64,000 nucleotides of DNA from the IMG/VR virus record IMGVR_UViG_3300038760_000073, positions 1 to 64,000 of that record; one strand, written 5' to 3'. The notes beneath the pieces are model-generated. The model did not search any database, had not been told where the DNA came from, and saw only the letters and a list, made by a program, of their open reading frames with translations. Every line of letters starts with the position of its first letter. Position 1 is the first letter of the stretch. Shown in pieces: positions 6,253-61,314 of this stretch. This DNA is from a virus. A program made the translations under genes and the position numbers.

Positions 6253-7746
6253 TTAGAAATATACAGATTGACTACTAGGAGTAAATGCTGTACCGAGACC
6301 TTGAACAATAACAACATGGTAGTAGAGATTAGCACCAAAGATGTTATCAACTACGCCGTAACGGGTAAGCAACCCGACGCGTGGTGAGAAATCATTTGGA
6401 CCAATTGTTCTCTGAACCATGACTGGAATGTAAGGACAATAGATGATACCTGTATCATAAAACTCTGGACCCTTGTAACCAAGGAGAGCATATTCAACAC
6501 CGGTGGTTTTAGCACCACCAGGACCATTACCATACTTAGATGACTGATCATATGTACCTGCGTTGGCATAACCAACTTCAGTACGGGTATCACGGTAAAC
6601 ACTAAACCTACCACCAAGTGAACCAATCTTAGCAATACCAACAGGTTGCGTATTAACGTCACCTTGGACTTGTACCCACTGAAATTCAGGGAGCATTTCC
6701 AAGATAGCGCAAACACGTGGTGTAGCTACAACAAAGTTAGCAGCACCGCGCCTGTTACGTACAGCGATTCGATTGGCCTCAATGATTAGTTTCTGATAGA
6801 AATCACGATTACGTTCAACGAGCCAACGCCCATCAGCAGATGCAGGATGCCAGATAGAGTATCCAGCACCGGCGCCTGCGCCAAGAGCAGATTGAATCAT
6901 TCTCATGAGCATTTCACGGTCAATCTCAGCTTGGATCTCATATGACATAGCATTTGTGATCTCAGCATCGACGTCGATACCGTTCATGTTCTTGAGGTCT
7001 TGTTCTAGTTCAACAGACCAACGGGCGCCCAACCTACGGGTACCAGCTTCAACGGCTGTTTTCTCGAATTTAACTTCAACTTGCGGAATGTTACCTGTAA
7101 TCTCAAAGTTCTTGAGAATCTCAGCAACACCACCGTCTTGAGCAGCAAAATCCCAAACACCCGCCGCACCACTTAAAGCAGTGGAGGATGCACCAGTGAA
7201 CCTTGTGTCAAGCAGTTGATAACCAAGCTCATCGTTATAATCCGGAGCAACGTTATCAGCGTTACCGCCGTAGGTTCCTCCCGCATTCCAGTTCGAACCT
7301 TCACCGCCACCAGTTGCTCCACCATCAATACCACTACCGAGATCTGCACCTTGGTAGGAGTAACGTAGAGCAAAAGCTAGACCAACAGGACCGGACATGG
7401 GCTGAACACCAACAATATCGTTGGAGATGAGCTCAGGGAACGTACGTCGTATCATAGGGATAAGTACTTTTGGGAGACGAGCATCGCCTGAAGCATAATT
7501 ATCAGAGGAGTTGGGGGTATTGGGATTATAAAGCCCTCCACCACCTAGGGACCCATCCTGCCCGGCTGTGTTTCCTTCTTCAACACACCATTTCTCTTGA
7601 TTTTCAAGAAGAATTGCTGTGTTGAGACGGACTGTGTCGTCTTCAATAGACTTAACGCTATCAGATGAATAATCTAGAACAGGTGCCCATTTCTCTAAGA
7701 GAGTATCGGCTCTGTTCTTATCAATAAAAGATTGTGGTTTATTCAT
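6253..7746 (-). CDS. 23: Major capsid protein gp23
   Basis: 497 residues from ATG 7746. An in-frame upstream start at 7782 is rejected because a Shine-Dalgarno AAGGAAA lies just before 7746. N-terminal signatures resemble T4 gp23: LLENQEKW (residues 47-53) matches the T4 FENQEK region, followed by acidic CVEE (54-57), a likely gp21 cleavage area, then the arm NSSDNYASGDARLPKVL (79-95) and NDIVGVQPM. C-terminal signatures include ELEQDLKNMNGIDVDAE, YKGPEFYDTGIIYCPYIP and RVGLLTRYGVVDN. It forms the hexameric capsid lattice (HK97 fold). The gene has a 91-base hairpin-bearing leader, unlike its neighbours, and a strong terminator, fitting very high late expression. Confidence 0.97.
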   Translation of the reverse strand: MNKPQSFIDKNRADTLLEKWAPVLDYSSDSVKSIEDDTVRLNTAILLENQEKWCVEEGNTAGQDGSLGGGGLYNPNTPNSSDNYASGDARLPKVLIPMIRRTFPELISNDIVGVQPMSGPVGLAFALRYSYQGADLGSGIDGGATGGGEGSNWNAGGTYGGNADNVAPDYNDELGYQLLDTRFTGASSTALSGAAGVWDFAAQDGGVAEILKNFEITGNIPQVEVKFEKTAVEAGTRRLGARWSVELEQDLKNMNGIDVDAEITNAMSYEIQAEIDREMLMRMIQSALGAGAGAGYSIWHPASADGRWLVERNRDFYQKLIIEANRIAVRNRRGAANFVVATPRVCAILEMLPEFQWVQVQGDVNTQPVGIAKIGSLGGRFSVYRDTRTEVGYANAGTYDQSSKYGNGPGGAKTTGVEYALLGYKGPEFYDTGIIYCPYIPVMVQRTIGPNDFSPRVGLLTRYGVVDNIFGANLYYHVVIVQGLGTAFTPSSQSVYF

Positions 7747-7837: not shown

Positions 7838-8686
7838 TTATTTCATTCGCTGTAGACCTTCTAGATACGGGTTTGCTACCTCTCTAGGCTGTTGAGGACT
7901 TAGTCGCTTAGGTACATCAGCTTTAACTTGTCGTTGTGAATAAGCCTCTTCTTTAATGACTTTCAGTCTTTCGCTTGATTTTTTATCAAACAATCTAGCT
8001 GTATAGTCGAAATTCTCTTCAATAAATTCAGGTGATTTATCATGTAAAATCTTGTGGAGATATTGAGCTTTCTTTTCTGGGAGACCTGATGTCCTAGTCT
8101 CTAGCAGTAGATCTGTTTTAGTCTTGTTATAAGCTTCTTTAATAATAACGTTTTCACGTTCAGCTTTTTCTAATTTATCAGATAGGTGAGTGATTTGCGC
8201 CTTCCCATCAACTACAGCGTCTTTAACTGACTCGCTCATCAACGATGAATCTACAGCTAATACTTTGCGGAGATTAGTAAGAACTTCCATAGCGGTCCGA
8301 TTTTGAGTTGCTTCTAAAATCTCTTTCTGTGGAATTGATTCATCAATATACTCTTCGAGATAGTTTGAAATCGATTCAACTAGTGTAGTTTTAAAATCCT
8401 TTGCAGATCCATGTAACTCTTTCTCATATCTGTTGATTACTTTGACTAATTTCTTAGAATTGCCAAGATCAACTGATTCCACAACCCGGTTGAGTTTCTG
8501 TGAATGATCTTTATCAATTGCGGAAACTAATTCATTGAGTTTTTTGGCATAAAGGTCGTCTTGTTCGGTAAGTGCTGCTTCAACAGAGAGTGATAATTTT
8601 TCTCTAATGGCGCTCTCAACAGATGCAATCGAATCTTCAGTCAAGACCTCTTTAACGCTTTCTGGTAGGATTGTTTTTCTAGTCAT
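7838..8686 (-). CDS. 22: Prohead core scaffold protein gp22
   Basis: 282 residues from ATG 8686 (MTRKTILPESVKEVL). It is highly charged and almost entirely helical, with coiled-coil stretches through the middle, as expected of the T4 gp22 scaffold that fills the prohead and is later degraded by gp21. It lies between the small core-protein gene and gene 23, as in T4. The ATG lies inside the end of the previous gene (ATGACTAG overlap), indicating translational coupling. Confidence 0.85.
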   Translation of the reverse strand: MTRKTILPESVKEVLTEDSIASVESAIREKLSLSVEAALTEQDDLYAKKLNELVSAIDKDHSQKLNRVVESVDLGNSKKLVKVINRYEKELHGSAKDFKTTLVESISNYLEEYIDESIPQKEILEATQNRTAMEVLTNLRKVLAVDSSLMSESVKDAVVDGKAQITHLSDKLEKAERENVIIKEAYNKTKTDLLLETRTSGLPEKKAQYLHKILHDKSPEFIEENFDYTARLFDKKSSERLKVIKEEAYSQRQVKADVPKRLSPQQPREVANPYLEGLQRMK

Positions 8687-8963
8687 TTTTAAAAAGTGGT
8701 TGTTCTGTTGCACCATTAACTCTATCTACTAATTTAGTTTCAACAGCGCTCTTTAAATATTTATGTGCACTAGCGTAATTTTTATCAGAAATTGCTGATA
8801 TAAAATGACTTAGTTTAGTATTCATAGAAACCTCTTCATCTTCTTCTCCGGTGATCTCTTCTTTCCCCGTTTTTCGAACCTTTTTATTGTGTTTCCGCTT
8901 TTGTTGCTTATTGGTATGTTTATTATAATCAACTTTTACGTTATCTTTTTTTGATCTAGGCAT
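8679..8963 (-). CDS. Small prohead core protein (gp67/gp68-like position)
   Basis: 94 residues: a very basic N-terminal half (KKRKHNKK type runs), an acidic linker (EEDEE), then a helical C-terminal half (SHFISAISDKNYASAHKYLK) ending in VDRVNGATEQ. The C-terminal half resembles small T4-type core proteins coded between genes 21 and 22. An internal ATG before NTKLSHF could give a 48-residue form. The late promoter and the coupling to gene 22 support a prohead-core role; exact orthology is uncertain. Confidence 0.6.
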   Translation of the reverse strand: MPRSKKDNVKVDYNKHTNKQQKRKHNKKVRKTGKEEITGEEDEEVSMNTKLSHFISAISDKNYASAHKYLKSAVETKLVDRVNGATEQPLFKND

Positions 8964-8982: not shown

Positions 8983-9648
8983 TTAAAGGTTGTTTATGAA
9001 GGATAAAAACCGCTCTCTTAGATATTCATCTACACCTTTTTTAGGTAGGTTAGAAATACTCTCTTCAAATTTATCGTATATTTCCTCATACACCCCGTTT
9101 TCCGCTAAGACCCATTGTTTAGATTCTAATATACCATTAACAAACGCAGAGGAATATGAAGGATCAGCCACACAATCAATAGCAACCAACTTTAAATTGT
9201 TCACTTGATTATAATCTACCTTTTCTTCAAGGGTACCAAGTGCTCTTGAAGACATGCCAATTTTAACACCATCATTAATTAAGGATCGTACAACTTGGCC
9301 ACATGGAGTGGTTAGTACCTTAGACTTGCCATAAAATACATTACCATCTTGTGTAATTTCAGTAACTATATGGCATGCCCGTTCTAAATCTACATCAGCG
9401 GATGATGGGTGGTTGAGTTCTCCCATCGCGCGCCCGGGCTTAATCATCTCTTCATTATATCTCTGAACTTCACGTTCAAGCTCATTGAGTGGGTAATATC
9501 TATTATTCCTATTAACACCCTCTGCCATCATATATGGCCCCTTTATATACAGGTTAGATGGTGTATTTTTATTTGTCTCTTCTTCAATAATTTCAAACTG
9601 ATCCGCAATATCAGGATTTTCTACAACCAAATTTAGTTTTAGAGCCAT
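8983..9648 (-). CDS. 21: Prohead maturation protease gp21
   Basis: 221 residues, the usual length of T4 gp21. Herpesvirus-protease-like fold residues are visible: His80 in GELNHP, Ser133/134 in KIGMSSRALG, and the acidic D158/D162 region in VAIDCVADPS. It cleaves scaffold, gp23 and internal proteins after hydrophobic-x-Glu sites, then itself. It stands immediately upstream of the core, scaffold and capsid genes. Many proteins in this window carry short leaders with candidate gp21 sites (see 34391-39367), so its substrate range may be large. Confidence 0.93.
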   Translation of the reverse strand: MALKLNLVVENPDIADQFEIIEEETNKNTPSNLYIKGPYMMAEGVNRNNRYYPLNELEREVQRYNEEMIKPGRAMGELNHPSSADVDLERACHIVTEITQDGNVFYGKSKVLTTPCGQVVRSLINDGVKIGMSSRALGTLEEKVDYNQVNNLKLVAIDCVADPSYSSAFVNGILESKQWVLAENGVYEEIYDKFEESISNLPKKGVDEYLRERFLSFINNL

Positions 9649-19405: not shown

Positions 19406-19409
19406 AATA

Positions 19410-19417: not shown

Positions 19418-19577
19418 TAAAATACCGAATCAACTTCTATTACCCCTATAGCCACCCATCAAAGTTTTTCAGCTGGTATACATATATTTAGTAAATTATA
19501 ATCAACTATCAACACTATATTTATCTGATGGTTTAGAACTCCATCAACGTCTAATATTATTATATATATAAAGTTTC

Positions 19578-20324: not shown

Positions 20325-20335
20325 ATTTTAGTTAG

Positions 20336-21161: not shown

Positions 21162-21166
21162 AATTT

Positions 21167-22561: not shown

Positions 22562-23757
22562 TAGAAACGACTCTTTCTCTCAACAACCATTACAGGTCGT
22601 GAAGATAATCTTGCATAATTATATGCATCCACTACATCTTGTGATGTCTCCGGATCAAATATAGGGAAAGTAACCATTTCCCTAAAAGTGCTAGTAAAAT
22701 CTTGTGAATGTGTAGGGCCAGAATAAAAAGGACCCCCATCAGCTACAACCGTTCGTAATGTGATAGGTGTTTTAAATTCACCATGAGATATTCTCTCAAT
22801 ATAATTCATATGATTTCCAATTGCATCTGCTGCTACTAACATAAAATCATGACGTTCATAATATACTACCGGCTTAAATCCTTCAAAGGACATTCCTATA
22901 GCTAAACCTGCCATTAAATTTTCCGCTACTGGTGTTTCAAGTTTTTGATCATCTGGCACATTTGCAAGATTACCCATAGCATTTCCATATAAAACATTAT
23001 ACCCGATAAAGATAGTATTTTTATCTGCACCTAGACTATCCATACTATCATTAATAGCATCTTTATAACCACCGGTAAATTTATTTTTAGGTAATTTAAT
23101 ATTTTCGTCTTCCAATACAGGAAAATATTCATCATCAGTAAGTTTTGTAGCCTTAGATAAATCAATTATACCTGGAGTTCTAGCATGAGGGTACTTCGGA
23201 TCATAAACATACCGCTGTACACATTTAGGGTGGCTAGGTTCTAAAGCTTTACCCCATCTATCGATAGTAGGCGTATCAACTGATCGTCTATTATCTTCAA
23301 CAATAAAATTACAAGGTAAATCCCAACCATCAACATATCTTGCGGCCTCATGTAAATGCCCTGAATCTTCATTACCATCTCCTAAAAAGCACCACACCTT
23401 TTGTTTAGATTTTTTTCTTTTTAAAGCCCACGCTATACCAGCTGCAATAGCTGGTAACCCTCCAATAATAGCAGAAGTAAAGAAATTTCTTTCTCTATCA
23501 AAAATAAACATACTACGACCGTTTAATATACGATCTCTTACTGTGTTTTGGGGTATACCATGAAGTATTGCATGGTAATGATTTCTATGATTTGATAAAA
23601 CATAATCACCAGGTTTTATATCTTTAAATATCTTTACTAGTTCTTCTTCATTACCCCCGGATAGATGAAAAAGAAAGGGTAATTTATTTTGAAAGTAGAG
23701 GTCTACTATACTATCTTCAAAGTTAATTAAATCTTGCTCTGTAAGTTGGTTGCTCAT
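22561..23757 (-). CDS. Thiamine-diphosphate enzyme, fused 2-oxoacid dehydrogenase E1 alpha/beta-like
   Basis: 398 residues. The N-terminal half follows E1-alpha: DIKPGDYVLSNHRNHYHAIL, IIGGLPAIAAGIAWALK, and the ThDP motif GDGNEDSGHLHEA with a downstream N (VEDNRR). The C-terminal half follows E1-beta: DAINDSMDSL, ETPVAENLMAGLAIGMSFEG and VYYERHDFMLVAADAIGNH. The usual 320+320 residues are compressed into one chain with the last beta domain missing. In this sugar-gene setting it probably makes a keto-sugar or transfers a two-carbon unit rather than serving central metabolism. It overlaps its neighbours by one and four bases. Confidence 0.7.
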   Translation of the reverse strand: MSNQLTEQDLINFEDSIVDLYFQNKLPFLFHLSGGNEEELVKIFKDIKPGDYVLSNHRNHYHAILHGIPQNTVRDRILNGRSMFIFDRERNFFTSAIIGGLPAIAAGIAWALKRKKSKQKVWCFLGDGNEDSGHLHEAARYVDGWDLPCNFIVEDNRRSVDTPTIDRWGKALEPSHPKCVQRYVYDPKYPHARTPGIIDLSKATKLTDDEYFPVLEDENIKLPKNKFTGGYKDAINDSMDSLGADKNTIFIGYNVLYGNAMGNLANVPDDQKLETPVAENLMAGLAIGMSFEGFKPVVYYERHDFMLVAADAIGNHMNYIERISHGEFKTPITLRTVVADGGPFYSGPTHSQDFTSTFREMVTFPIFDPETSQDVVDAYNYARLSSRPVMVVERKSRF

Positions 23758-24779
23758 AAGTCTATTAGTATTCTGCCCGCCTGGCTCTGACGGATCAAAT
23801 CTAAAGCATCGTTTATATTATGTAATGAAGTTCTGTGAGTAATCAACGGATCAATATCTATCAACCCAGCTTCTGCTAACTTAATATAGCGAGGTATATC
23901 CTCTTGCGGGCAAGTTTTGCCACCTTGTGTAGCTCTTAGTAATTTACCCTTTCCAAAAAACATATCAACAGCATTAGGTATCTCTAGAGTTTTATTAGGT
24001 GGTAGATGACCCACCATAATATATCTACCCTTGTTAGATAATAGTGATATAGCTTCTGATATTAACTCTGCTGATCCTACTGTATCAGTAATAATATCAA
24101 CATCCTGTAAGTGATTACTAAATTTACTTTCTGTTAAATTAATAAAATGAGTAGCACCTAATTTCATAGCTATATCCTTTTTATTATTATTGATATCAAC
24201 AGCATAAATAGGATAACAGCAATTCATTTTAGCACCCTGTATTAAGTTTAACCCAACACCACCACAGCCTATAACCATTAAGCTCTCACCAAATTTTACA
24301 TCACATTCGTTATTAACTACACCTAAACCTGTAGTTAATCCACAACCTAAAAGAGCTCCTAGATCTTTGTTTGTATTTGAACTTACCTTTGTAAGTCTAT
24401 TTTCAGATATAATAGCATATTCAGCAAACGTGGTAACTTTACCCCCTCCAATCCGAATACCTTTACATTTATATGTTGGAAAGGGGGCCTCGATACCCTC
24501 ACCTACCATCCAATGAGCGACTACACTATCATCAGGCTTTAAAGTAGTTACACCAGGCCCTATCTCAACTACATTACCGGAGCCTTCATGTCCCATCATA
24601 TGAGGCATAAATTTAGCATTACCCTTATGACCTTTTATTTCTAAAAGTTGAGCCCCACATATACCACTAGCATGTAATTTAATTAGAACTTGTCCTACAT
24701 CTAGAGGCTTATCTATTTCAACCTCTTCAACTATAAGGGGGTTATCTACTTTGTATGCTATTGCTGCTTTAAATTTCAT
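23754..24779 (-). CDS. Zinc-type medium-chain alcohol/sugar dehydrogenase
   Basis: 341 residues, MDR superfamily. Catalytic zinc residues are Cys in SGICGAQL and His-Glu in MMGHEGSGNVV; NAD-binding GCGGVGLNLIQGAK is central. The structural-zinc lobe lacks its four cysteines (HWMVGEGIEAPFP instead), so only one zinc is expected. It overlaps both neighbours by ATGA, so it is co-translated with the ThDP enzyme, suggesting a two-step conversion. Substrate unknown. Confidence 0.82.
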   Translation of the reverse strand: MKFKAAIAYKVDNPLIVEEVEIDKPLDVGQVLIKLHASGICGAQLLEIKGHKGNAKFMPHMMGHEGSGNVVEIGPGVTTLKPDDSVVAHWMVGEGIEAPFPTYKCKGIRIGGGKVTTFAEYAIISENRLTKVSSNTNKDLGALLGCGLTTGLGVVNNECDVKFGESLMVIGCGGVGLNLIQGAKMNCCYPIYAVDINNNKKDIAMKLGATHFINLTESKFSNHLQDVDIITDTVGSAELISEAISLLSNKGRYIMVGHLPPNKTLEIPNAVDMFFGKGKLLRATQGGKTCPQEDIPRYIKLAEAGLIDIDPLITHRTSLHNINDALDLIRQSQAGRILIDL

Positions 24780-25591
24780 TTAAATAAAAATCTATAATTA
24801 TTATAGATCCAATCTTCCGGAATTCTATATTTTTCTACCAATTTAAAGTTATTGGCTACGGCTGCTTTTTTAGACTCGAATATAGCCTCACCGTTAACTT
24901 TAAGATCTTCTAATATCTCACCTAATTCTTCTTGGTTGTTAAAATATATAATACCATCCTCGTCGAAAAAATCACTCACAGAATCATCACCCCAAAAAAT
25001 AGGTATTGTTTTGGTAGCAAAACAATCAACAATTTTCTCTGTCCAATATCCAGGTTGTCTACAATTTTCTATAGTTACAGAATACATATACTTGGATAAT
25101 GAATCTTCTTTATTTTCTACAGGGTTATAACCATATCCAAACACTTCTATATCTGTAAACTTATCAATTACTTTATGTCTTAACTGATGACCTTCAGTGA
25201 AGTTCTTTGATGATGCAATAATAGAAACTTTATTATCTTTATGCATATCTACGTAATTATTAATCCAACATCTACCATGTGGATAATAGAGGTAGTTCTG
25301 ACCTTTGCTTATAAGATTTTCATCAAAAGTTAAAACAAAATCAAACAATCGATTATTTTTCTCTATCCATTCATAATATTGCGGGTGAATTGCTCGTGGT
25401 TCTAAAATCCATGCTACCTTCCGCTTAATACCGGAAGCTTTATGAATATCATTCAAGCACATATCCGTAATAAAGCAAGTATCACTAACAGGGGTGTTTG
25501 TAAAATTCCACTTTACATGCTTGTTAATACCTTTATGACATGACGACGGTTCACCACCGAAATTTTTATCTCTAATATTTATTTCTACCAC
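24776..25591 (-). CDS. GT10-like fucosyltransferase family protein
   Basis: 271 residues from GTG 25591. The alpha-1,3-fucosyltransferase-type donor-site block is visible: YSVTIENCRQPGYWTEKIVD, CFATKTIPIFWG, then DDSVSDFFDEDGIIYF. The N-terminal half (ITDMCLNDI, KRKVAWILEPRAIHPQYYEW) resembles phage and bacterial relatives. It would transfer fucose or a related GDP-sugar, which matches the GDP-mannose-epimerase-like gene nearby. A related enzyme is coded at 52857-53882. Confidence 0.72.
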   Translation of the reverse strand: MVEINIRDKNFGGEPSSCHKGINKHVKWNFTNTPVSDTCFITDMCLNDIHKASGIKRKVAWILEPRAIHPQYYEWIEKNNRLFDFVLTFDENLISKGQNYLYYPHGRCWINNYVDMHKDNKVSIIASSKNFTEGHQLRHKVIDKFTDIEVFGYGYNPVENKEDSLSKYMYSVTIENCRQPGYWTEKIVDCFATKTIPIFWGDDSVSDFFDEDGIIYFNNQEELGEILEDLKVNGEAIFESKKAAVANNFKLVEKYRIPEDWIYNNYRFLFK

Positions 25592-27189
25592 GATTCTATA
25601 TATGTCTCCATCTGTTTTTTATTAAATCTCTCAACCTTCTGAACCAACTGTTCGTTATGCTTATAAAATTTATGATTGCTCTTATCGGTTAACGCTACTT
25701 TATATGAATCTTCATGAGGTAAGTGAAATAGAAAGTATTTACTATCTGTTGAAGTGACGCTAGTAACTGTCTTACCTAATATTTTAGCTCGTGATATAAT
25801 CTCATTATCTTCATATCCCCAACCTTTAAAGTTTGGATTAAACCCGTTTATATCTTTAAATGTATTACGCTTAGCAATAAGGCAACCACCAACAGCATTT
25901 ACATTACCAACTGTATATAAATCAGTCGTATAAAGATTTCTAATATTAGATACATCTACGGTTGATTGCAAATGTTCAAACAGCTTAGGTATATTACCGT
26001 TTGCAGATCCCGTACCGGTAATCTGTTTTTTAAGTTTATATTCAGCATAAATTGCTACCCCATTATACCCTATACAAATAGAATTGTCTATATTACTAAT
26101 CGTCTCTATAGATCTAGATAAACTATCAATACTAACAATACAATCTATATCTAAAAAGCAAACTATATTATTAATAGCATTCTCAAGACCTATATTATAA
26201 CCTATACATTTATTATAAATAGCATCACTTTTGTGAAAAATATACTGATCGTTACCCCGTACAATATGTTCTATAGTTTTTTCCGGCCCATCTTCTACAA
26301 ATACAAATTCACAATTTGGATATATTGCCTTATAGTAGTTATAAATAATTTTAAAATTCTTTCTACGCTCTTCTGTATCTTCTCTATAATGTACAACAAA
26401 CGATATAGGCTCCGTAGGCTTGCGTATCTTTAATATATTTAAAACTTCTGTTAAATTTAAATTCGGTACCCCTACAGGACTTACACCATGCTTCTCTAGA
26501 AAGACCTTCGCAGCTTTTTGAATATTACTCTGCCAGTCCTGCCTGGGCCTAATAGATGAGCTATGTTCTGAACATGCTTGTTCGTTTACGTAATCTAAAC
26601 TGTTTGGTATATCTGCCCACCACCAGTAAGGTGTACTATAACCTGCTTTAGCTAATCTGTAAGAATGCTCCACATGTTCAAAAGCATTTACTAGCTTCTC
26701 ATCATATAAACCTACATTCTCTAAGCATTCTCTAGTATAAAAAGTAACTGCCCCAACACAATGTAAATTGAGAGCTACTTTAATATCACCATAGTCAATA
26801 ATTTTTCTAGGTTTAGGAGGACCTCCACTAACACCACCCTTATTTGCCGGTCCATGATAACCAAACATAAAGTGATGTATACCTGTTTTTTTATGAGCTG
26901 CTATATATGCCTTAAATAGGTTATCTGTAAATACCATATCATCCTCTACAAGAATAATATACTCACACCCATTATCTAACAAGCATTTTATTGCGAGATT
27001 TTTAGCATGACCAACTCCTTTACCACCACTGTTAATAACAATATCATCTGAGGAACGAGTTACCGGTATATTACCATCATCTACGGTTATAATTTTATCA
27101 TACCACCCCGGCTTAATTGAGTTAATGCATTTATTATAAAAGGCCGGCCTATCACATGTTATAACTGCGCACCCAACCTTCTCACTCAT
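25585..27189 (-). CDS. Two-domain glycosyltransferase (GT-A plus GT2/GT27-like)
   Basis: 534 residues. Domain 1 (1 to about 255): AVITCDRPAFYNKCINSI, nucleotide site IITVDDG, metal site ILVEDDMVF, acceptor-side CVGAVTFYTRECL. Domain 2 (about 265-534): ISFVVHYREDTEERRKNF, VCFLDIDCIV metal site and AVGGCLIAKRNTFKDINGF followed by GWGYEDNE, the GT27-like catalytic end. The fusion may add two sugars in turn. A promoter-like TTGAAT-N16-TATATA lies upstream with +1 at 27188, one base inside ATG 27189. Confidence 0.8.
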   Translation of the reverse strand: MSEKVGCAVITCDRPAFYNKCINSIKPGWYDKIITVDDGNIPVTRSSDDIVINSGGKGVGHAKNLAIKCLLDNGCEYIILVEDDMVFTDNLFKAYIAAHKKTGIHHFMFGYHGPANKGGVSGGPPKPRKIIDYGDIKVALNLHCVGAVTFYTRECLENVGLYDEKLVNAFEHVEHSYRLAKAGYSTPYWWWADIPNSLDYVNEQACSEHSSSIRPRQDWQSNIQKAAKVFLEKHGVSPVGVPNLNLTEVLNILKIRKPTEPISFVVHYREDTEERRKNFKIIYNYYKAIYPNCEFVFVEDGPEKTIEHIVRGNDQYIFHKSDAIYNKCIGYNIGLENAINNIVCFLDIDCIVSIDSLSRSIETISNIDNSICIGYNGVAIYAEYKLKKQITGTGSANGNIPKLFEHLQSTVDVSNIRNLYTTDLYTVGNVNAVGGCLIAKRNTFKDINGFNPNFKGWGYEDNEIISRAKILGKTVTSVTSTDSKYFLFHLPHEDSYKVALTDKSNHKFYKHNEQLVQKVERFNKKQMETYIESW

Positions 27190-27230: not shown

Positions 27231-27422
27231 CTACTGCTTGTGCCTGTTTTCCATATTTGAATAATATTGCGGATCTTCAACGAGATGCTGCTTTGCTATA
27301 ATTTTAGCAATCGATTTATATGGTGTATGTTCTAGCTCAACTTGTATACCTTTAATTAACTCCTCAGGATCAAACTGTAGTGTATCATCTATAGGTTTAA
27401 AAAAATTCTTAAAAGCTCTCAT
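27231..27422 (-). CDS. DUF5661-like small protein with phage leader
   Basis: 63 residues. MRAFKNFFKP resembles the MKxFKxYFE leaders found at 34391-39367. The remainder (ELIKGIQVELEHTPYKSIAK, IIAKQHLVEDPQYYSNM) fits the DUF5661 pattern (G-x-x-x-E-x-EHT ... A-x-x-H-L-x-EDPxYY). Exact late promoter, so late-expressed, possibly packaged. Function of the family is unknown. Confidence 0.65.
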   Translation of the reverse strand: MRAFKNFFKPIDDTLQFDPEELIKGIQVELEHTPYKSIAKIIAKQHLVEDPQYYSNMENRHKQ

Positions 27423-33860: not shown

Positions 33861-34394
33861 ATGAATATATTTGTAACTGATAATGACCCGATTCAAGCTG
33901 CTAAGAACTTATGTGATCAGCACGTACGTAGTAAAATGCAAATTGAGGGAGCTATTATGTTGGCTCATGCATTTTCACAGGAAATTCTTAATGATCCATC
34001 AACACCTAGAACATCCACCGGGAATCCGAGAAAAAGGGGTAAAGGTTATTATAAGCATCAATGCTCTATATGGGCTAGAGAGTCTATAGATAACTTTAAA
34101 TGGCTAGCTGAGCATACTTTAGAAATGTTTACTGAGCGGATGTATAGGTGGCCTGATTCAAAGGAGCATTACACTAAAACATTTATTGAATGGTGTATAG
34201 ATAATATTGATAAGACATTAATTAAAGATATACCGCTAACATCCTATGCTGTCGCTATTAATGATGAATGTGAGTGTCGCAAGACCGTTAAAGCATTTAA
34301 CAGCTTATCAGTTATTGATCAATATAGACATTATATTAAACTAGATAAAAAATTCGCTACATGGACTAAGCGAGAAGCGCCTAGCTGGTTTTAG
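33861..34394 (+). CDS. Conserved phage protein of unknown function
   Basis: 177 residues. It has the layout of a protein seen in many phages: N-terminal IFVTDNDPIQAAKNLCDQHV with KMQIEGAIML, then YYKHQCSIWARESIDNFKWL, PLTSYAVAINDEC, and an ending WTKREAPSWF. Conserved H, W and C residues suggest a DNA- or nucleotide-related enzyme, but I do not know its activity. It lies next to folE, and its last four bases overlap the convergent gene at 34391. Confidence 0.6.
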   Translation: MNIFVTDNDPIQAAKNLCDQHVRSKMQIEGAIMLAHAFSQEILNDPSTPRTSTGNPRKRGKGYYKHQCSIWARESIDNFKWLAEHTLEMFTERMYRWPDSKEHYTKTFIEWCIDNIDKTLIKDIPLTSYAVAINDECECRKTVKAFNSLSVIDQYRHYIKLDKKFATWTKREAPSWF

Positions 34395-34831
34395 GCATCA
34401 ACCTCTAAATTATCACCAGCAATATTTTCTGCACTAACATCAATTAGTGCATCTAATTCCCGTTCAATAAACTGTTTTCCAACCAATATCTTATAAATAT
34501 TGGTAGATCTATTGCCAATAGAAAATGGCACATTTGAGAATAATTTATCACCAACTTTGACGTCAAACTCAACAACAGGTCGATGTTCAGTATTACCAGC
34601 ACCAACATTAATTGTTACCTCACCGGTTTTATCTTTCAATAGTGTCTTACCGTTAACAGTTCTAAAAAACACCTTAGAGCCCTGCTCTTGCAAGTCCTCT
34701 CCATGGAGAACATTGTAAGCACCGTTACCAGAATCAAGCTTTGCTGGTACTATACCAATACCCTCTATATCAAAGAACTCAATTAAGCCTAAGATTACCC
34801 TTTCTTCAAAATATTGTTTAAACTTTACCAT
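34391..34831 (-). CDS. Retropepsin-like zinc-protease-family protein with capsid leader
   Basis: 146 residues. The leader MVKFKQYFEERVI matches the MKxFKxYFE leaders of neighbouring genes. The body (FFDIEGIGIVPAKLDSGNGA, YNVLHGEDL, later VGDKLFSNVPFSIGNRS) resembles the ATP-dependent zinc protease/retropepsin-like family (PF05618), with KLDSG as the active-site D-S/T-G and KILVGKQFI as the second strand. It may be packaged and cut other internal or host proteins. Confidence 0.65.
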   Translation of the reverse strand: MVKFKQYFEERVILGLIEFFDIEGIGIVPAKLDSGNGAYNVLHGEDLQEQGSKVFFRTVNGKTLLKDKTGEVTINVGAGNTEHRPVVEFDVKVGDKLFSNVPFSIGNRSTNIYKILVGKQFIERELDALIDVSAENIAGDNLEVDA

Positions 34832-34842
34832 GGTAATTACTG

Positions 34843-35232
34843 TTAATAATTTTCTGAATCTTCACTATGGTTAGGTACATCCTTATTTTCATCGTAATCT
34901 AACCAATGATAAACGGATGATAAATAATCAGATGCTTTAGTAATTTTTGCTGCCGTCCACCCCTCTAAACTATTTGCTGATTTGAGCATATTTTCTAACT
35001 CACTAGCATACTCTATAGTTTTTTTAAGTTCGGATAATGCCATATGAATTTCAGAAGAATCATGCTCCTCATGAGAACATTTTTTATCACCACTATACTC
35101 TTGATCTGAATGTTGTTTATTATTATCTGTATTAATACCTACGACAATATCATCTTTAACCGGTATACCGACTTGAGTCATATATGCTTCTGAAAGTAAA
35201 TCTTTATCCTTACCCCAATTGTTATGCTGCAT
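34843..35232 (-). CDS. Acidic small late protein with LSE leader
   Basis: 129 residues, highly acidic and rich in His/Ser/Asp (e.g. EYSGDKKCSHEEHDSSEIH). Its N-terminal DKDLLSEAYMTQV resembles the start of the proteins at 35779 and 61009 (LIAETYMQS, LMAEQYTKV). A possible gp21 cleavage site (L-S-E) lies near residue 14. The central part (MALSELKKTIEYASELE) is helical. Late promoter with start on the ATG. Function unknown. Confidence 0.5.
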   Translation of the reverse strand: MQHNNWGKDKDLLSEAYMTQVGIPVKDDIVVGINTDNNKQHSDQEYSGDKKCSHEEHDSSEIHMALSELKKTIEYASELENMLKSANSLEGWTAAKITKASDYLSSVYHWLDYDENKDVPNHSEDSENY

Positions 35233-35237
35233 AACAA

Positions 35238-35245
35238 TATTTATG
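35238..35245 (-). promoter_or_regulatory. Late promoter, start at ATG
   Basis: CATAAATA on the - strand; +1 at 35232, the A of ATG. Confidence 0.6.
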
Positions 35246-35326
35246 CTAAATTATAATACTCTCATACCTTTTAGCACTTTAGGTATTATTAATTAAGAAT
35301 AACACTCTACCACCCTACCACTTCTA

Positions 35327-35719
35327 TCACCAAGATTTGCAAGCCCAGTAACCTGCTGTCAACTTACTCTTTTTTTGATCACACTTATGTCTAGCTCTAA
35401 ATGATTTACGAGCTTTAGGATTACTCTTGCGTATTTTCATCGTCTTTTCACCCCGCTTTTTTGCAGATGTACCACCGTGACCAAAATTGACTTTCTTTAC
35501 ATTCCCAGTCTTTGGATCTTTAACATATACCTTAAACTTCTTAACATCTCCCCTGGTAGGCTTATTTAAGGTAACCTTGCGCCCCTGATACTCAGCATCC
35601 TCTTCCGGTAATCCACGACCAGGGAAATCTAACGACTCTGCCATATTTTGAATACCTATTTCAGAAATATCATCTGTTGTTGTTTCTAGTTGCTCAAAAT
35701 ATTCTTTAAAGGTTTTCAT
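35327..35719 (-). CDS. Basic small protein with capsid-targeting-like leader
   Basis: 130 residues. Leader MKTFKEYFEQLETTTDD, then a strongly basic C-terminal two-thirds: KKFKVYVKDPKTGNVKKVNF, GEKTMKIRKSNPKARKSFRA and a final C-x-C-like end (RHKCDQKK...GYWACKSW). The KVYVKDPKTGNVKKVNFG plus SFRARHxCD...YWxCKxW type is a conserved small protein of T4-like marine phages. The mix of leader and basic body suggests a DNA-binding internal head protein. A Zn site through the two cysteines and His is possible. Confidence 0.7.
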   Translation of the reverse strand: MKTFKEYFEQLETTTDDISEIGIQNMAESLDFPGRGLPEEDAEYQGRKVTLNKPTRGDVKKFKVYVKDPKTGNVKKVNFGHGGTSAKKRGEKTMKIRKSNPKARKSFRARHKCDQKKSKLTAGYWACKSW

Positions 35720-35778
35720 ATGTATTTTAACTATTGCTTAAATTGTTTTATAGTAACTACTATAAACTAAGAATATGG

Positions 35779-36087
35779 TCAAGCACCCTCGCCATCCTCG
35801 GCACCGGTATTAAACATACTATTACCTTGACCGGTCGTACCTGCCCCTAATTTACTAAGTACATCTGCTAATTGTGCTATTAATTCTGCAGCACGTGCTT
35901 GTAAATCACCTGATTGATCTAGATCATCACAGCAACATTCATCACAATTACCACATGTGCAGCTTTGAGGCTCTTGCGAACAACCACCAGCTATACCGGT
36001 ATCGATCTCAGTTACAGCTAATTCTGTAGGAGCAATGCTCTGCATATATGTTTCAGCAATTAAATCCATAGTGGGGTTGTTCTTCAT
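35779..36087 (-). CDS. Small late protein with IAE leader and cysteine cluster
   Basis: 102 residues from ATG 36087; an upstream in-frame extension to 36183 is rejected because a late promoter puts +1 on 36087. MKNNPTMDLIAETYMQSIAP contains I-A-E, the same sequence cut by gp21 in T4 internal proteins. The centre has eight cysteines in 24 residues (SCTCGNCDECCCDDL) that could bind metal. The end is small, Gly/Ala/Glu-rich. Function unknown; expressed late and possibly packaged. Confidence 0.55.
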   Translation of the reverse strand: MKNNPTMDLIAETYMQSIAPTELAVTEIDTGIAGGCSQEPQSCTCGNCDECCCDDLDQSGDLQARAAELIAQLADVLSKLGAGTTGQGNSMFNTGAEDGEGA

Positions 36088-36091
36088 AATG

Positions 36092-36640
36092 TTATTTATT
36101 GATAATAATCGATTTAACTGCTTCTTTATCTGTCTCAGACATGTCATCCGGTGTAAAATAGCTAATAGCCTCGTCAATATCACTATTAATGAGATGTCTA
36201 GTCTTAGTTCCGGATATACCTTCTGATTGAATTGGTATTTTTGCGATATTTACTAGTGGATATTTTTCAATATTTTTATTAAAACCATCATATCGCTTAA
36301 TATCTTCATCTTTAGCACCAGCACCAACAATAATACCGGTATGTTTATTATTATATGCAAATGCATATACAGATCTAACAGGGCTAACAGCTGATATATG
36401 AGTCTCGATAGGCTTTCCTAGGTATTTTGAGTATATTTCCCATATAGCCTTTGATTGTTCGGCTGTAATACCATCTCTTTCCTTCTTACCAATAAAAATA
36501 ATGCCTTTATCTGCACTATCTAAAATATATTTGAAGGCTTTAAAGTGTCCCTTAGTTGGTGGTTTAAAGCCACCGGGGAATAATGCAATATTCTCTGCTG
36601 GTCCCTGAACTTGTTCAAAATACTGTTTAAAATTTTTCAT
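36092..36640 (-). CDS. Cytidylyltransferase-like nucleotidyltransferase with capsid leader
   Basis: 182 residues. Leader MKNFKQYFEQVQGPAEN, then the HxGH-superfamily domain: IALFPGGFKPPTKGHFKAFK (T-x-G-H), IIFIGKKERDGITAEQ, and EGISGTKTRHLI as the ISSTxxR-type motif. The product is an NMN- or phosphopantetheine-adenylyltransferase-like enzyme, also found without the leader in other phages. The leader suggests that it is carried in the head and injected. Its stop is 4 bases past the start of the next late gene. Confidence 0.75.
   Translation of the reverse strand: MKNFKQYFEQVQGPAENIALFPGGFKPPTKGHFKAFKYILDSADKGIIFIGKKERDGITAEQSKAIWEIYSKYLGKPIETHISAVSPVRSVYAFAYNNKHTGIIVGAGAKDEDIKRYDGFNKNIEKYPLVNIAKIPIQSEGISGTKTRHLINSDIDEAISYFTPDDMSETDKEAVKSIIINK
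36093..36100 (-). promoter_or_regulatory. Late promoter, start at ATG
   Basis: AATAAATA on the - strand; +1 at 36087, the A of ATG. The box lies in the last codons of the nucleotidyltransferase gene. Confidence 0.6.
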
Positions 36641-37860
36641 TACTTAGTTATTGGTGTACTGGTTTGGCCTCCGGAGAAGTTTGCTCTACTAAACTCGAGT
36701 CTATCTACTAGCTTAACAGCGTTACCATCTCTACTGATGCTAACATATCCTTCAGGCGCAGTAACCTTAAGCGTCCCATCACCAGCATCTAGAAAATGCT
36801 TTGTTTTATATACTGCATTATTATATTTGTTAATAAATATCTGTTTTGCTTGTGAGATTAACTTACTAACCTTAAACACATTTACTATATCTTGTTCATT
36901 ACTCTCTATCTCTGAGAGTTTTTTCTTAAAACTCTCTTTAACTCGCTCTTTACCTTTAATACTCTTTCGTTTATCTATTTCCTTAGACATTCTATTTTTA
37001 ATCCATAGAACAAAATTTGCATATGATTCATCAGCATTTTCTAAAAATTTACCACCTTTAATCTCAGAATTTGTATATATATTGAGTAAATCTAGGGGAA
37101 GATCTTTATATTTAACTTTAATTGAGTCAGCAGTCTTAACATAATCCTTTACCTGCTTGACTTCATCAGTTGTTAATGTAACAACCCCTGTATCATCTTT
37201 AAAAAATGCATCATCTACCCACACACCAGGTACCTTGTTAAGTTTATTAACTTTAGCTCCAAAATTAGCTCCACTTTCTAGATCATTGTATTCAGTATGA
37301 AAAATAATGCCAAATACTGAACTACTAATAGATTTACCTAGATCTGAATCCGCTTCCACTGCATATTTTATAGTATTTGGCTTAAATGTATAGTGCATCA
37401 CCCCATCAATATTTTCTTTTGCTAATGTTGATGAATCAAACATAAAATCACCCTGTAGTATGTTTTTAATACCAAGTTTGGGTAGGTATTTGAGAGCCTT
37501 CTTAAGTTTATCTGCTAGACCAGGTGCATGTCCATGATTTAACTCAACATCATTATCAGTATAGTTAATTTTGGGGTCTCTATTAAAAATAGATTTGGTA
37601 CCTACAAAAAATTTACCTGTATCTGGGTGCCTCCCTACAAACATTGCGGGCGCGCCATCCCACTTAACTGTGGTACCAACCTTTCGTTTACTTTTGCCTT
37701 GTAAGTGTGATAGTAGGTCTGTTATAAAGCCTCTAGCTGTTGTGTATCCTTGCTCTCCCTTAGTTAGAACAAGTTCTTCCAGGTGGGTTAAGTGTGTGTT
37801 AGCTTTAGTTGCCTCCTCAATGAGCTTGTAAGCTTCAAAATATTGTTTATATGTTTTCAT
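36640..37860 (-). CDS. Nucleic-acid-ligase-like nucleotidyltransferase with capsid leader
   Basis: 406 residues. Leader MKTYKQYFEAYKLIEEATK nearly repeats the T4 internal-protein start MKTYQEFIAE. The body carries ligase-like motifs: motif I TVKWDGAP (K66-W-D-G), NILQGDFMF (136-139) like motif III, EGYVSI (370-375) like motif IV and KLVDR (383-387) like motif V. The spacing between III and IV is longer than in DNA ligases. It is not the T4 gp30 ligase. It may adenylylate or join nucleic-acid ends during injection; activity is inferred. It abuts the genes on each side by one base. Confidence 0.6.
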   Translation of the reverse strand: MKTYKQYFEAYKLIEEATKANTHLTHLEELVLTKGEQGYTTARGFITDLLSHLQGKSKRKVGTTVKWDGAPAMFVGRHPDTGKFFVGTKSIFNRDPKINYTDNDVELNHGHAPGLADKLKKALKYLPKLGIKNILQGDFMFDSSTLAKENIDGVMHYTFKPNTIKYAVEADSDLGKSISSSVFGIIFHTEYNDLESGANFGAKVNKLNKVPGVWVDDAFFKDDTGVVTLTTDEVKQVKDYVKTADSIKVKYKDLPLDLLNIYTNSEIKGGKFLENADESYANFVLWIKNRMSKEIDKRKSIKGKERVKESFKKKLSEIESNEQDIVNVFKVSKLISQAKQIFINKYNNAVYKTKHFLDAGDGTLKVTAPEGYVSISRDGNAVKLVDRLEFSRANFSGGQTSTPITK

Positions 37861-39035
37861 TAGTTGATTAGTTTCATTCCACCCACTTCTTTTGCAGCAC
37901 CTGAGGCTGTTGTGCTACTACCAGGAAAGTACCCATAAACACCGTCACCGTCTATTCTAAATTTAATTAACTCTTGATCAATAGCTTGATTAATAATTTC
38001 TTGACTCTTTACATTGATGTAATTAGCTTTACTCCATGTACCCTCAGCAAACCTAGCAGGTCCTGTTCCGGATGCTTTCATACCATGCTGATATACTCCT
38101 AACCATATATCAAACTTATGGCCCCCTTCACCCATATTTTCATCATCTGGTGAACCGTTTCCATAAGCGTGCAGTAAACGACCACACATATGCTGTATTC
38201 GTACATTAATACCCGGGTATTTATTAACGATTTCTTCTAAGACTGTCCTTGTTAGACCTTTCTTACAAAAATCACTGCTCCAAGTACTTGTATTAATACC
38301 ATCGAGAGTATAACTATCATCCTCTGCTTCACCTGCTTTCAACCCACCATAATTCGCTATTTGTTCAATTTTTACTCTATCATCAGCAAATCCCCTACCA
38401 CGCGCACTTATAATCCTACCTAGACCTGTTTTTAATTCTATACTAGTATTACCTATCTGTAAATCACCAACGCTACCCTTTTTAGCTTCAGTTAAAAGAG
38501 CTAAAGCTAATTCTCCATTACCGACACTTACGTTACCTTCTTTAAAATCTCGCGCCCAAAGCATGTTATAAAACTTTAAATGATCTTCTACCGGCAAAAA
38601 CATCTCAAGCTGAGGCTTACATATACTATATAATTCCATACTACCTACCTTAGTAGTAAATTCAGGTAACAATACATTAAGGTTGTCTTTTTTATCAACC
38701 AGCTCTCTTAATCCGTCGTAATTAGCATTATTAAACTCTTGAAATAATAGTTTTAAGAACCGATCTTCTGTTTCAAAACCACTCTTTTCTGCTAGTTTTT
38801 GAATAATTTTATAATCCTCTTTAAGTATAAAGGATCCTTCAGCCTTACCTTGTAAATAATCAGCTACTCTAAATGCTGTCTTATCACTTATACCTTCAAG
38901 TGTTTGAGGTTTACCCTCATCATACTCAAAAGTAATCTTTGCTTCCCCATATACGCTTAAATGTCCACGTGGAGGTACTTCTTTACCTCTCACCTGATCA
39001 TATAAACTTGCTAAAGATCTTCTACTATAATTCAT
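37860..39035 (-). CDS. Conserved phage protein, PD-(D/E)xK nuclease-like motif
   Basis: 391 residues. The N-terminal two-fifths are helical. A nuclease-like core follows: VGNGELALALLTEAKKGSVG, then D191 in GDLQIGNT and E200-L-K202 in SIELKTG, the E...D...ExK pattern of PD-(D/E)xK enzymes. A His/Asp-rich segment EGGHKFDIWLGVYQHG lies near the end. It overlaps the next gene by ATGA and the previous by one base, so it belongs to the leader cassette although it has no leader itself. The nuclease call is by motif only. Confidence 0.5.
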   Translation of the reverse strand: MNYSRRSLASLYDQVRGKEVPPRGHLSVYGEAKITFEYDEGKPQTLEGISDKTAFRVADYLQGKAEGSFILKEDYKIIQKLAEKSGFETEDRFLKLLFQEFNNANYDGLRELVDKKDNLNVLLPEFTTKVGSMELYSICKPQLEMFLPVEDHLKFYNMLWARDFKEGNVSVGNGELALALLTEAKKGSVGDLQIGNTSIELKTGLGRIISARGRGFADDRVKIEQIANYGGLKAGEAEDDSYTLDGINTSTWSSDFCKKGLTRTVLEEIVNKYPGINVRIQHMCGRLLHAYGNGSPDDENMGEGGHKFDIWLGVYQHGMKASGTGPARFAEGTWSKANYINVKSQEIINQAIDQELIKFRIDGDGVYGYFPGSSTTASGAAKEVGGMKLIN

Positions 39036-39367
39036 GATCCAATATCTGTAATTTTATCTAGTTCTCTTTGTGTGTCAACAGGACTGATCTCTAAAAAGTT
39101 CTCAATAGTCTCAATAACTTCTTTTGGTTTATCATTTAATATTAATGACTGCAGCTCATTTACAATTTTACTCTCACTATCATCTGGTATATGTAAGAAT
39201 GCCTTGACAGCTAAATTAATTAAGAATTTTTCACCCTCTGATGTTAATGGTATAGGTGTCTCAGGGACAGGCTGTTCACTAATATCCGTAGCATCAGGCA
39301 TGTCTGGAGCTCCATCCTGTTCATTAATCTGTTTTAAATACTGTGTAATTAACTTGAGTGTTTTCAT
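39032..39367 (-). CDS. Small acidic protein with leader
   Basis: 111 residues. MKTLKLITQYLKQINEQDGAP is a variant leader with I-N-E as a possible gp21 site. The rest is acidic and helical (SEGEKFLINLAVKAFLHIP; DKPKEVIETIENFLEI). It overlaps both neighbours by ATGA, so strictly co-translated. Function unknown; perhaps a scaffold-like or chaperone partner of the cassette enzymes. Confidence 0.55.
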   Translation of the reverse strand: MKTLKLITQYLKQINEQDGAPDMPDATDISEQPVPETPIPLTSEGEKFLINLAVKAFLHIPDDSESKIVNELQSLILNDKPKEVIETIENFLEISPVDTQRELDKITDIGS

Positions 39368-39705
39368 ATTTCAATCTTCTTTGCGGCTTTAACGAGTTTA
39401 TCTGCTAACTGTCTTTTAGCACTCTGAACTTTCCTTGCTGTTGAGCTCATCACCTGCTTACCTAGTTTTTGATCGGGTATAGACAAAACAGCTGCAGCTG
39501 TTTCTACTGTTTTGTCTATATCAGATTCTTGCTCTTCTTCTGGATGAACAGAGTTTTTAAGCTTACTAAATATATCCCACGCAAATTCAGTACCACTTAC
39601 ATCAACGCTATCGATAACCTCGCCGGTTGCTGTTTGTAATACAATACTATAATTACCCCGTTCTGGATTATTTTCCTCAACTAATTCGAGAAATTTACTA
39701 CTCAT
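39364..39705 (-). CDS. Small protein heading the leader cassette
   Basis: 113 residues. N-terminal beta-rich part (NYSIVLQTATGEVIDSVDVS), then a basic helical end (VQSAKRQLADKLVKAAKKIE). It is the first gene of the overlapping set 39705 to 36092 and has a late promoter with +1 at 39706. Function unknown. Confidence 0.5.
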   Translation of the reverse strand: MSSKFLELVEENNPERGNYSIVLQTATGEVIDSVDVSGTEFAWDIFSKLKNSVHPEEEQESDIDKTVETAAAVLSIPDQKLGKQVMSSTARKVQSAKRQLADKLVKAAKKIEI

Positions 39706-40197: not shown

Positions 40198-40623
40198 TTA
40201 TATAGATTTTCCTTTACCTATACGACAGTTTATTATACCATTATAGTACTCTTCCTTTAAGAGTACTTCCTCAGCGAATTGTATTTTCGCTTCTTCGTAA
40301 CTTAATTGCCATTTTGAATCACAAAATTTGATAATTTCAAACTTAAAGTTTTGTTTTCCCAACTCAATAATATCTATATTAAGCTTATTTGATGACGAAG
40401 TATACTCACGCCAATCTGTCTCTTTAATTGTATGCCTTTTATTTTTCTTTCCTTTGAGAGGAGGTCGTTTAAGTGTAGTTATGCATTGTTTCTTACCAAT
40501 ATATTTCTTACCAGACTGTAAGTTTGTTATTTTATATATAAATCCGAACGGTACTATACTATCTTCACATATAATATCTGATTCCCAATGACCAAAATCA
40601 ATTTGATTGCTCTTTATCGTCAT
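40198..40623 (-). CDS. GIY-YIG nuclease domain protein
   Basis: 141 residues. FGFIYKITNLQSGKKYIGKK gives the two GIY/YIG strands; TDWREYTSSSNKLNIDIIEL and the late E in LKEEYYNGIINCRIGKGKSI complete the small phage GIY-YIG family. Such genes are frequent in T4-like phages and act as repair or free-standing homing nucleases. It is not interrupting another gene here, so homing is unproven. It overlaps the following gene by 26 bases. Confidence 0.75.
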   Translation of the reverse strand: MTIKSNQIDFGHWESDIICEDSIVPFGFIYKITNLQSGKKYIGKKQCITTLKRPPLKGKKNKRHTIKETDWREYTSSSNKLNIDIIELGKQNFKFEIIKFCDSKWQLSYEEAKIQFAEEVLLKEEYYNGIINCRIGKGKSI

Positions 40624-40903
40624 GATTTGCTAGCACTACTGCTTTTTTTTTCTGTACACCTCGTAACTTTTTTACCTTCTTCTTTTTGTTTTTCTCTGTC
40701 TCTGTACTTAAGTCGGCGCGGCGCTGTATGCCACCCAATACTTTAGGATTTCTGGCATCTCCAGGAGCGTATGAGTCAGATGAATTAATATTACCATCCG
40801 GGTCAAACCCACCTGCAGAGCCACCTACAGTATTACTAGTAACCATATCTTCATGTAAATAGTATAAAAATATATGTTCAAATTTACTACTTGATTTTGA
40901 CAT
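40598..40903 (-). CDS. Small late protein containing a gp23 arm-like motif
   Basis: 101 residues from ATG 40903; an upstream start at 40939 is rejected because a late promoter places +1 on 40903. Residues 40-56 match residues 79-95 of the capsid protein at 14 of 17 positions (NSSDxYAxGDARxPKVL), and the RR five residues later also aligns. The C-terminal third is a lysine-rich tail (KKKKVKKLRGVQKKK). It may bind the same partner as the capsid N-arm, or nucleate/limit assembly. Other function unknown. Confidence 0.65.
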   Translation of the reverse strand: MSKSSSKFEHIFLYYLHEDMVTSNTVGGSAGGFDPDGNINSSDSYAPGDARNPKVLGGIQRRADLSTETEKNKKKKVKKLRGVQKKKAVVLANHDDKEQSN

Positions 40904-51899: not shown

Positions 51900-51907
51900 A
51901 AACCTTA

Positions 51908-52747: not shown

Positions 52748-52856
52748 ACTTATTAATAAATATGCATATGCAAGCAGCACTCATTTCTTATCTTTAAAGT
52801 GTTAAGGGTTGTAGTAATAACCATAATATTGTGATATGTCTTTAATTTAAAATCTA

Positions 52857-61008: not shown

Positions 61009-61314
61009 TCAAATCATGTTCTCGTCGCGGTAGCCATGTTCATCTTTGACGATTTGCATGAATGTCTCAAATTGATGTTTACCTAGGTTCATTAAAAAAA
61101 CTAACCCAGCATCTCCAAGATTATCGACAAATACTTCAGCCTTTTTAACAAACTCGTCGAATTCACCTAGTGATTCATCTTCAGCTGGGTGTACATCACC
61201 TTCAGCCCCCATATGTGGAGGAGCCTCCTCTTGCTCGTAACTCTCGTTAAGAACTTTACCGGTCAAAACCTTAGTGTATTGCTCTGCCATTAAATCAAAC
61301 TCATTACGCTTCAT
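61009..61314 (-). CDS. Small acidic late protein with MAE leader
   Basis: 101 residues from ATG 61314; the longer frame to 61356 begins before the predicted +1. MKRNEFDLMAEQYTKVLTGK resembles the starts of the genes at 34843 and 35779. Acidic centre (EEAPPHMGAEGDVHPAEDES), helical end (LVFLMNLGKHQFETFMQIV). It is divergent from queC and late, so it may be a head-internal protein. Function unknown. Confidence 0.55.
   Translation of the reverse strand: MKRNEFDLMAEQYTKVLTGKVLNESYEQEEAPPHMGAEGDVHPAEDESLGEFDEFVKKAEVFVDNLGDAGLVFLMNLGKHQFETFMQIVKDEHGYRDENMI

Follow-up and report, generated by a model that had tools for sequence, protein, structure and literature searches.

Predicted capsid-targeting leaders on a late cassette of putative enzymes in an uncultured marine T4-like phage

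Bacteriophage T4 packages the internal proteins IPI, IPII and IPIII, whose unrelated bodies follow N-terminal leaders of 10-19 residues with hydrophobic residues at positions 4 and 7 and a gp21 cleavage site at position 10 or 19 (PMC9026906, PMC12373910). In IPIII, residues 4 and 7 serve targeting and residues 8 and 10 processing. The protease gp21 cuts after L/I-x-E, and Asp at position 10 stops processing but leaves targeting intact (PMC9026906). T4 and its close relatives are known to carry capsid-targeting leaders on unrelated cargo, and in this group the leader signal has served to find internal-protein genes. The T4 ADP-ribosyltransferase Alt is also packaged and carries an N-terminal propeptide cut by gp21 (PMC9026906), and ejection proteins of the giant phages phiKZ and SPN3US have prohead-protease propeptides cut after Glu, which are mostly longer and follow the motif A/S-x-E. 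Leaders resembling those of the T4 internal proteins are found in a late operon on the minus strand (about 40.9 to 34.4 kb), here called the cassette, which encodes some ten unrelated proteins and lies in the first 64 kb (the window) of the 76,845-base IMG/VR virus record IMGVR_UViG_3300038760_000073. The source is an uncultured T4-like ocean bacteriophage, which itself encodes a gp21 protease, a scaffold and a capsid protein. We consider it probable, at roughly 0.85, that the leader is a T4-type capsid-targeting sequence and that the cassette proteins are cargo packaged in the head, mostly cut by gp21 and delivered with the DNA.

The original prediction named five neighbouring genes with related leaders, and all quoted N-termini are present at their minus-strand starts (MVKFKQYFEE at 34831, MKTFKEYFEQ at 35719, MKNFKQYFEQ at 36640, MKTYKQYFEA at 37860 and MKTLKLITQYLKQINE at 39367). 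Four of these are strict members, but the fifth is divergent. MRAFKNFF at 27422, which had been called similar, matches in the targeting residues 4, 7 and 8 but has neither Glu at position 10 nor a cut site, and for this DUF5661 protein no leader-bearing homologue was established. The strict motif [KV][KTNM][FY]K[QE]YFE occurs exactly four times in the 20,293 amino acids of the window's open reading frames, always at the N-termini of neighbouring genes. Among the 73 open reading frames of at least 60 amino acids, four protein pairs share at least 6 of 9 identical residues at positions 2-10, compared with an average of 0.01 in shuffles and none for internal windows. Searching the whole 76.8-kb record with a looser rule resulted in five hits, all within the cassette (0.6 expected). 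The leaders are genuine, and their likeness greatly exceeds what chance would produce.

The leader codons vary between copies (ACC/ACA, CAG/CAA, GAG/GAA). Since synonymous codons differ, the likeness is maintained at the protein level. The genes are adjacent, abutting or overlapping start to stop, as would be expected if recent duplication or recombination at gene starts had left a functionless likeness. This explanation is extremely improbable and gene duplication was rejected as the cause, because the codons differ and the bodies behind the shared leaders are unrelated to one another, as had been noted originally. Moreover, the leader pattern is conserved in about 70 related contigs and at other loci in the isolates C48C1, Melnitz and S-CREM2.

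The features conserved in these approximately 70 contigs are those known from T4, namely hydrophobic residues at positions 4 and 7 and a gp21-type [LI]-x-E at position 10 or just before the body. Alignments of 17-23 homologues per family revealed one or both hydrophobic positions in each of three families. M1, F4 and E10 are the only invariant leader columns of the retropepsin-like family (19 sequences), in which P3 is often F; all 17 sequences of the nucleotidyltransferase family have F4 and Y7; and M1, K5, Y7 and E16 are nearly invariant ahead of the body in DUF6267 (23 sequences). The last [LIV]xE site ends 2-6 residues before the body in all 23 DUF6267 leaders, 22 of which have [LI]xE and one VxE (VNE). 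Residues 1-20 of the window's DUF6267 protein had low confidence, and its domain begins at about residue 21. Cleavage after Glu near residues 9-18 had been expected. The predicted sites agree with this for the retropepsin-like protein (E10), the DUF6267 protein (E16) and the protein starting at 39367 (E16), but not for the basic protein, in which the best candidate lies around residue 40. A leader-ending protease site is plausible for both the 39032 and the 39364 protein. T4 IPI (MKTFKEFTSTTTPVSTITE|A, i.e. MKTFKEF...ITE|A) starts nearly like the window leader MKTFKEY and has its site further downstream, as in DUF6267. Another T4 protein, gp61.1 (gene 61.1, annotated as hypothetical), begins MKTFKEFIKE|D and also matches the capsid-targeting rule.

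A gp21 protease and a T4-type core are encoded in the window, with gp22 (assigned by position) and gp23 genes. The gp21-type protein is the presumed processing enzyme, and a Peptidase_S77 (gp21) gene was found in seven of eight related records; records carrying it are 97-197 kb long. A candidate cut site in the window's own gp23, WCVEE|G, aligns with WCIEE|A, G or S in gp23 of relatives and with LTE|A or LAE|A in gp23 of T4 and cyanophages. The window gp23 matches gp23 in 2,514 phage records; identity to the best isolate among the matches listed is no more than about 33%, which places the phage in a clade without close isolates.

The T4-type late-promoter motif ATAAATA precedes 16 window start codons by 11-17 nucleotides, compared with at most 8 for 7-mers of the same composition. 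These starts include those of gp21 and of the cassette genes 40598, 39364, 35779 and 34843. The position of the motif shifts three start codons inward from the longest open reading frame (corrected starts e.g. 36087, 40903 and 61314). The start of the gene ending at 35779 was thereby moved from GTG at 36183 to ATG at 36087, which is preceded by AATAAATA, and the overlap with the next gene was removed.

Bodies of the cassette proteins are found elsewhere both with and without a leader. The basic protein (35327) has relatives in small, non-T4 Pelagibacter and Roseobacter phages. In Kolga and HTVC112P the protein begins at the body without a leader (MAKYQG..; MAKYQGRTVKLNKP and MAKYKNKTVKLNKP), and the N-terminus of the CRP-6 homologue is unrelated. 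Where this body occurs in T4-like phages it stands behind leader and site, as in the window (..LPEE|DAEYQGRKVTLNKP) and in C48C1 (MKKFKQYIDE..LTE|AEYQGKKVTLNKP, with AEYQG following the site). DUF6267 begins directly at the body in the cyanophages P-HM2, S-PM2 and S-SZBM1 (MSKNTHLEHLED, MATQNKHLEHLED, MAKNTHLEHLED), unlike in the window, and carries leaders in Melnitz (MINFSKYITE|D), DLP6 (MMKFTQFLAE|S) and C48C1 (MMLDFKNFITE|Q). Homologues of DUF6267 with 39-86% identity and conserved surroundings were present at 73 related loci. The gene is also clustered with nucleotidyltransferase genes in cyanophages, Pelagibacter phage HTVC008M, Methylophilales phage Melnitz and Stenotrophomonas phage DLP6; in cyanophages and Melnitz this cluster is flanked by the genes for helicase (gp41) and primase (gp61).

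Indirect experimental support comes from published virion proteomes of three related T4-like cyanophages, S-CREM2, S-SCSM1 and S-SZBM1, in which leaders of the same kind occur on detected proteins. Among the 52 virion proteins reported for S-CREM2 (PMC10665884, Table 3) are gp154 cytidylyltransferase (MKNFSSFLTE|A), gp6 SAM hydrolase (MKDFDSFLEE|F), gp14 kinase (VKRFDAFLTE|E), gp13 (MKDLHSFLTE|Q) and gp136 (MQTFSMFFSE|D). The virion-detected Cas9-like nuclease gp12 carries RFASFMAE|A, which resembles a leader, at residue 25, suggesting a longer leader or a start further downstream. Virion-detected nucleotidyltransferases with leaders are S-SCSM1 ORF91 (MKSFLQFLKE|A) and S-SZBM1_140 (MRFRQFIIE|A). 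These cyanophage enzymes share with the cassette the kind of leader and the nucleotidyltransferase superfamily. Virions of S-SM1 also contain a cytidylyltransferase (T4-GC190), and the P-HM2 member of this cluster has no leader. In S-SZBM1 the DUF6267 protein (gene 141), which has no leader, was not found in the examined parts of the virion table. The leader is an argument for regarding the cytidylyltransferase, kinase and SAM hydrolase of cyanophage virions as cargo. A T4-register rule applied to all 219 S-CREM2 proteins gave seven hits, compared with 1.1 expected from shuffling. Five of the seven are virion proteins (Fisher p=0.009), but this p-value is not fully blind, because four of the matching N-termini were seen before the rule was run and gp136 is the only blind true positive. 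An unanchored rule for the first 30 residues was rejected as too loose, with 9 of 16 S-CREM2 hits outside the virion set (p=0.055).

The last two results are among several that weigh against capsid targeting. Under strict rules HTVC008M has no leader excess, and S-SZBM1_139 and S-CREM2 gp156 were detected in virions and have no leader. The hydrophobic-x-Glu motif is weak; for example, UvsY (40925, MELLQRYIKE) matches the strict rule, and as a leader bearer it was rejected as a chance match. The virion evidence comes from leader-bearing homologues or analogues in relatives, the window phage itself being uncultured. Furthermore, the cyanophage authors regarded enzymes in CsCl-purified virions as possible contaminants (PMC10665884). 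Targeting and propeptide terms are absent from the available text of that paper, which does not mention the leader there, and N-terminal trimming is unreported in the available parts of all three virion papers. Finally, the nucleotidyltransferase (36092) has Q at position 10, and close to its leader no [LI]xE site stands out clearly. This protein may keep its leader, since Asp at position 10 in T4 blocks processing but not targeting. On balance, the suggestion of capsid targeting made originally is strongly supported by residues 4 and 7, the gp21-type sites, the gp21 gene, the late promoters, the leaderless bodies elsewhere and the virion data of relatives, but for the cassette proteins themselves presence in the virion, leader cleavage and injection are predictions. 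A shared helix that binds a membrane, a polymerase or a multi-enzyme complex is an alternative unrelated to the capsid; near identity and adjacency of the four strict leaders could also be expected of a tag for complex assembly. It seems improbable, because the residue register, the Glu sites before the bodies, the candidate site in gp23, the late promoters and the virion-detected leader enzymes of isolates all point to the head.

The genes originally listed for the cassette exist, but candidate-leader proteins at 37860-39035, 39364-39705, 34843-35232, 35779-36087 and 40598-40903 had been missed. The cargo set is thus most likely larger, comprising a putative nuclease, the retropepsin-like protein, the nucleotidyltransferase, the DUF6267 protein and small acidic and basic proteins. 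The additional N-terminal sites are conserved across relatives: VLGE|A in the 391-residue protein, LVEE|N in 39364, LLE|QD in 39032, LxE|AY in 34843 and 35779, and ML.E|D in 40598. One protein with such a second-type leader, S-SCSM1 ORF89 (FNSLSE|AY), has been detected in virions, which together with the conservation supports this class. The rule [LIM]xE[ASQT][YMFL] was not enriched genome-wide in the window (6 hits compared with 3.4 expected), and for this reason the second-type class is tentative. For the protein at 61009..61314, no homologues were present within the related loci fetched. A run of at least six proteins with second-type N-termini (LLAEAY, MLSEAY, NLAEAY, FLAEAY) was observed at 17.6-22.7 kb of the 197-kb relative and possibly represents a second group of packaged proteins.

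Several of the bodies resemble enzymes. The earlier assignment of the 34391 protein as retropepsin-like was confirmed by PF05618 in 19 of 19 homologues (best 6.9e-7), by a profile hit to PDB 9g58 (E=1.1e-7) and by D33-S34-G35, invariant in all 19. The 36092 protein had been described as an HxGH nucleotidyltransferase. PF01467 was found in 9 of 17 family members (best E=1.7e-4), but the motif reads TKGH in the window copy, which falls below the PF01467 cutoff (E=0.033) yet retains FKPPTKGH; motif, as (H/T)xGH, and family profile both support the family. The DUF6267 protein is tentatively ligase-like, as proposed earlier: K66-W-D-G69 is invariant and the top fold hits include several RNA/DNA ligases, but the best fold E-value of 0.23 is not significant. 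The 391-residue protein (37860-39035) gave no match in direct comparison with the phage collection, no family match and nothing useful in a fold search of its model. Its label as a probable PD-(D/E)XK nuclease therefore rests on residues invariant in 15 homologues (G172, E175, G190-D191 and E200-x-K202).

The cassette proteins would be made late, at the same time as the head proteins. Their amphipathic leader would bind the gp22 scaffold core via the hydrophobic residues 4 and 7 and so bring the cargo inside the prohead. There gp21 would cut most leaders after hydrophobic-x-Glu, either at residue 10 or directly ahead of the folded body, so that the cargo is free inside the DNA-filled head. It would presumably enter the host with the DNA on infection, and its enzymes may act early against restriction or in host takeover. 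A role in early counter-defence is a reasonable guess, because T4 internal proteins block GmrSD restriction enzymes (PMC12373910). A less probable, rather unlikely alternative is that the leader does target the scaffold core and that the proteins act in assembly as core or scaffold helpers, as T4 IPIII partly does, instead of being delivered. T4 IPIII and the gp22 core interact and internal-protein mutants accumulate polyheads (PMC9026906), and several cassette proteins are small and acidic like core proteins (39032, 34843). However, most bodies are enzymatic-looking or occur without a leader in small non-T4 phages, which does not fit a dedicated role in assembly.

Unlike the T4 internal proteins, which are small anti-restriction cargo, the predicted cargo of the window consists of larger putative enzymes encoded in one conserved late cassette. 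Packaging of an enzyme behind a gp21-cut propeptide would resemble T4 Alt; no ADP-ribosyltransferase was found among the cassette proteins, and the Alt leader (MELITELFDE) differs. In the literature collection searched, no paper applying the capsid-targeting leader to marine T4-like phages was found, and "capsid targeting" combined with cyanophage gave only a T4 review. What appears to be new is that a clade without isolates has a conserved late cassette of putative enzymes larger than the T4 cargo, and that the leader links this cassette to unexplained cyanophage virion enzymes. A broader proposal, whose chances we regard as evenly balanced, is that the cassette is a co-packaged kit of nuclease, ligase-like and nucleotide-transferring enzymes and a retropepsin-like protease, which this uncultured clade of ocean T4-like phages delivers with its genome, the leader a general zip code of marine T4-like phages, the suspected cyanophage contaminants genuine cargo, and packaging predictable from sequence. 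Little is known of how abundant ocean phages begin an infection in its first minutes. Predicting head-packaged proteins by a sequence rule would provide candidate takeover and anti-defence factors in uncultured viruses. It would also account for the presence of cytidylyltransferases, kinases and SAM hydrolases in virions of cyanophages, a question that PMC10665884 and PMC9602691 leave open. Natural leader-cargo pairs, putative enzymes included, could also be used for protein packaging in T4-type heads. The coordinates are given in Table 1.

Table 1. Head genes, cassette members and tentative leader-bearing proteins in the window (| marks a predicted or candidate cut site)
Feature	Coordinates	Strand	Remarks
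Major capsid protein gp23	6253..7746	-	candidate cut site WCVEE|G
Scaffold core protein gp22	7838..8716	-	assigned by position between gp21 and gp23; VLTE|D near N-terminus
gp21-type prohead protease	8983..9648	-	homologue of Peptidase_S77 proteins; late-promoter motif upstream
DUF5661 protein (tentative)	27231..27422	-	MRAFKNFF; PF18905 E=1.7e-8; TATAAATA just upstream of ATG
Retropepsin-like protein (PF05618/2pma type)	34391..34831	-	leader MVKFKQYFEE|R
Acidic protein, second-type leader	34843..35232	-	..KDLLSE|AYM; homologues keep ..L[LM]xE|AY near N-terminus; CATAAATA just upstream of ATG
Basic protein (phrog_7595)	35327..35719	-	leader MKTFKEYFEQ; second site LPEE|D before body
Small protein	35779..36087	-	MKNNPTMDLIAE|TYM; relative of 34843 family
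HIGH-type nucleotidyltransferase (CTP_transf_like)	36092..36640	-	leader MKNFKQYFEQ
DUF6267 protein	36640..37860	-	leader MKTYKQYFEAYKLIEE|A; KWDG motif; PF19782 E=8.5e-96
Probable PD-(D/E)XK nuclease, 391 residues	37860..39035	-	N-terminal stretch ends YGE|A; VLGE|A in relatives
Acidic protein	39032..39367	-	leader MKTLKLITQYLKQINE|Q; homologues mostly MKT[LI].L....Y..L.E|QD
Small protein	39364..39705	-	leader MSSKFLELVEE|N; homologues M[SKN]KFL[KE]L[VIL][EA]E|N; CATAAATA just upstream of ATG
Likely first cassette member	40598..40903	-	MSKSSSKFEHIFLYYLHE|DM; relatives MxxxSKFERLFLKML.E|[DE]; TATAAATA just upstream of ATG
Second-type leader protein (tentative)	61009..61314	-	MKRNEFDLMAE|QYT; late-promoter motif just upstream of internal ATG

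The window also encodes UvsX, UvsW, UvsY and a DNA polymerase, as assigned by a reading of the window genes and their N-termini. Two islands rich in sugar-nucleotide and glycosyltransferase-like genes (18380-27189 and 50196-58691) flank the replication genes. A protein of 582 amino acids (from about 63032 onward) contains a tandem near-repeat of about 100 residues, the copies of which each begin with ESYTAHYLTEQQYGDDPQ and have an LTE site. At 182-185 kb of the 197-kb relative, the genes include some for small proteins that look similar to the curli components CsgF and CsgA. Curli components are a feature of pelagimyophages.

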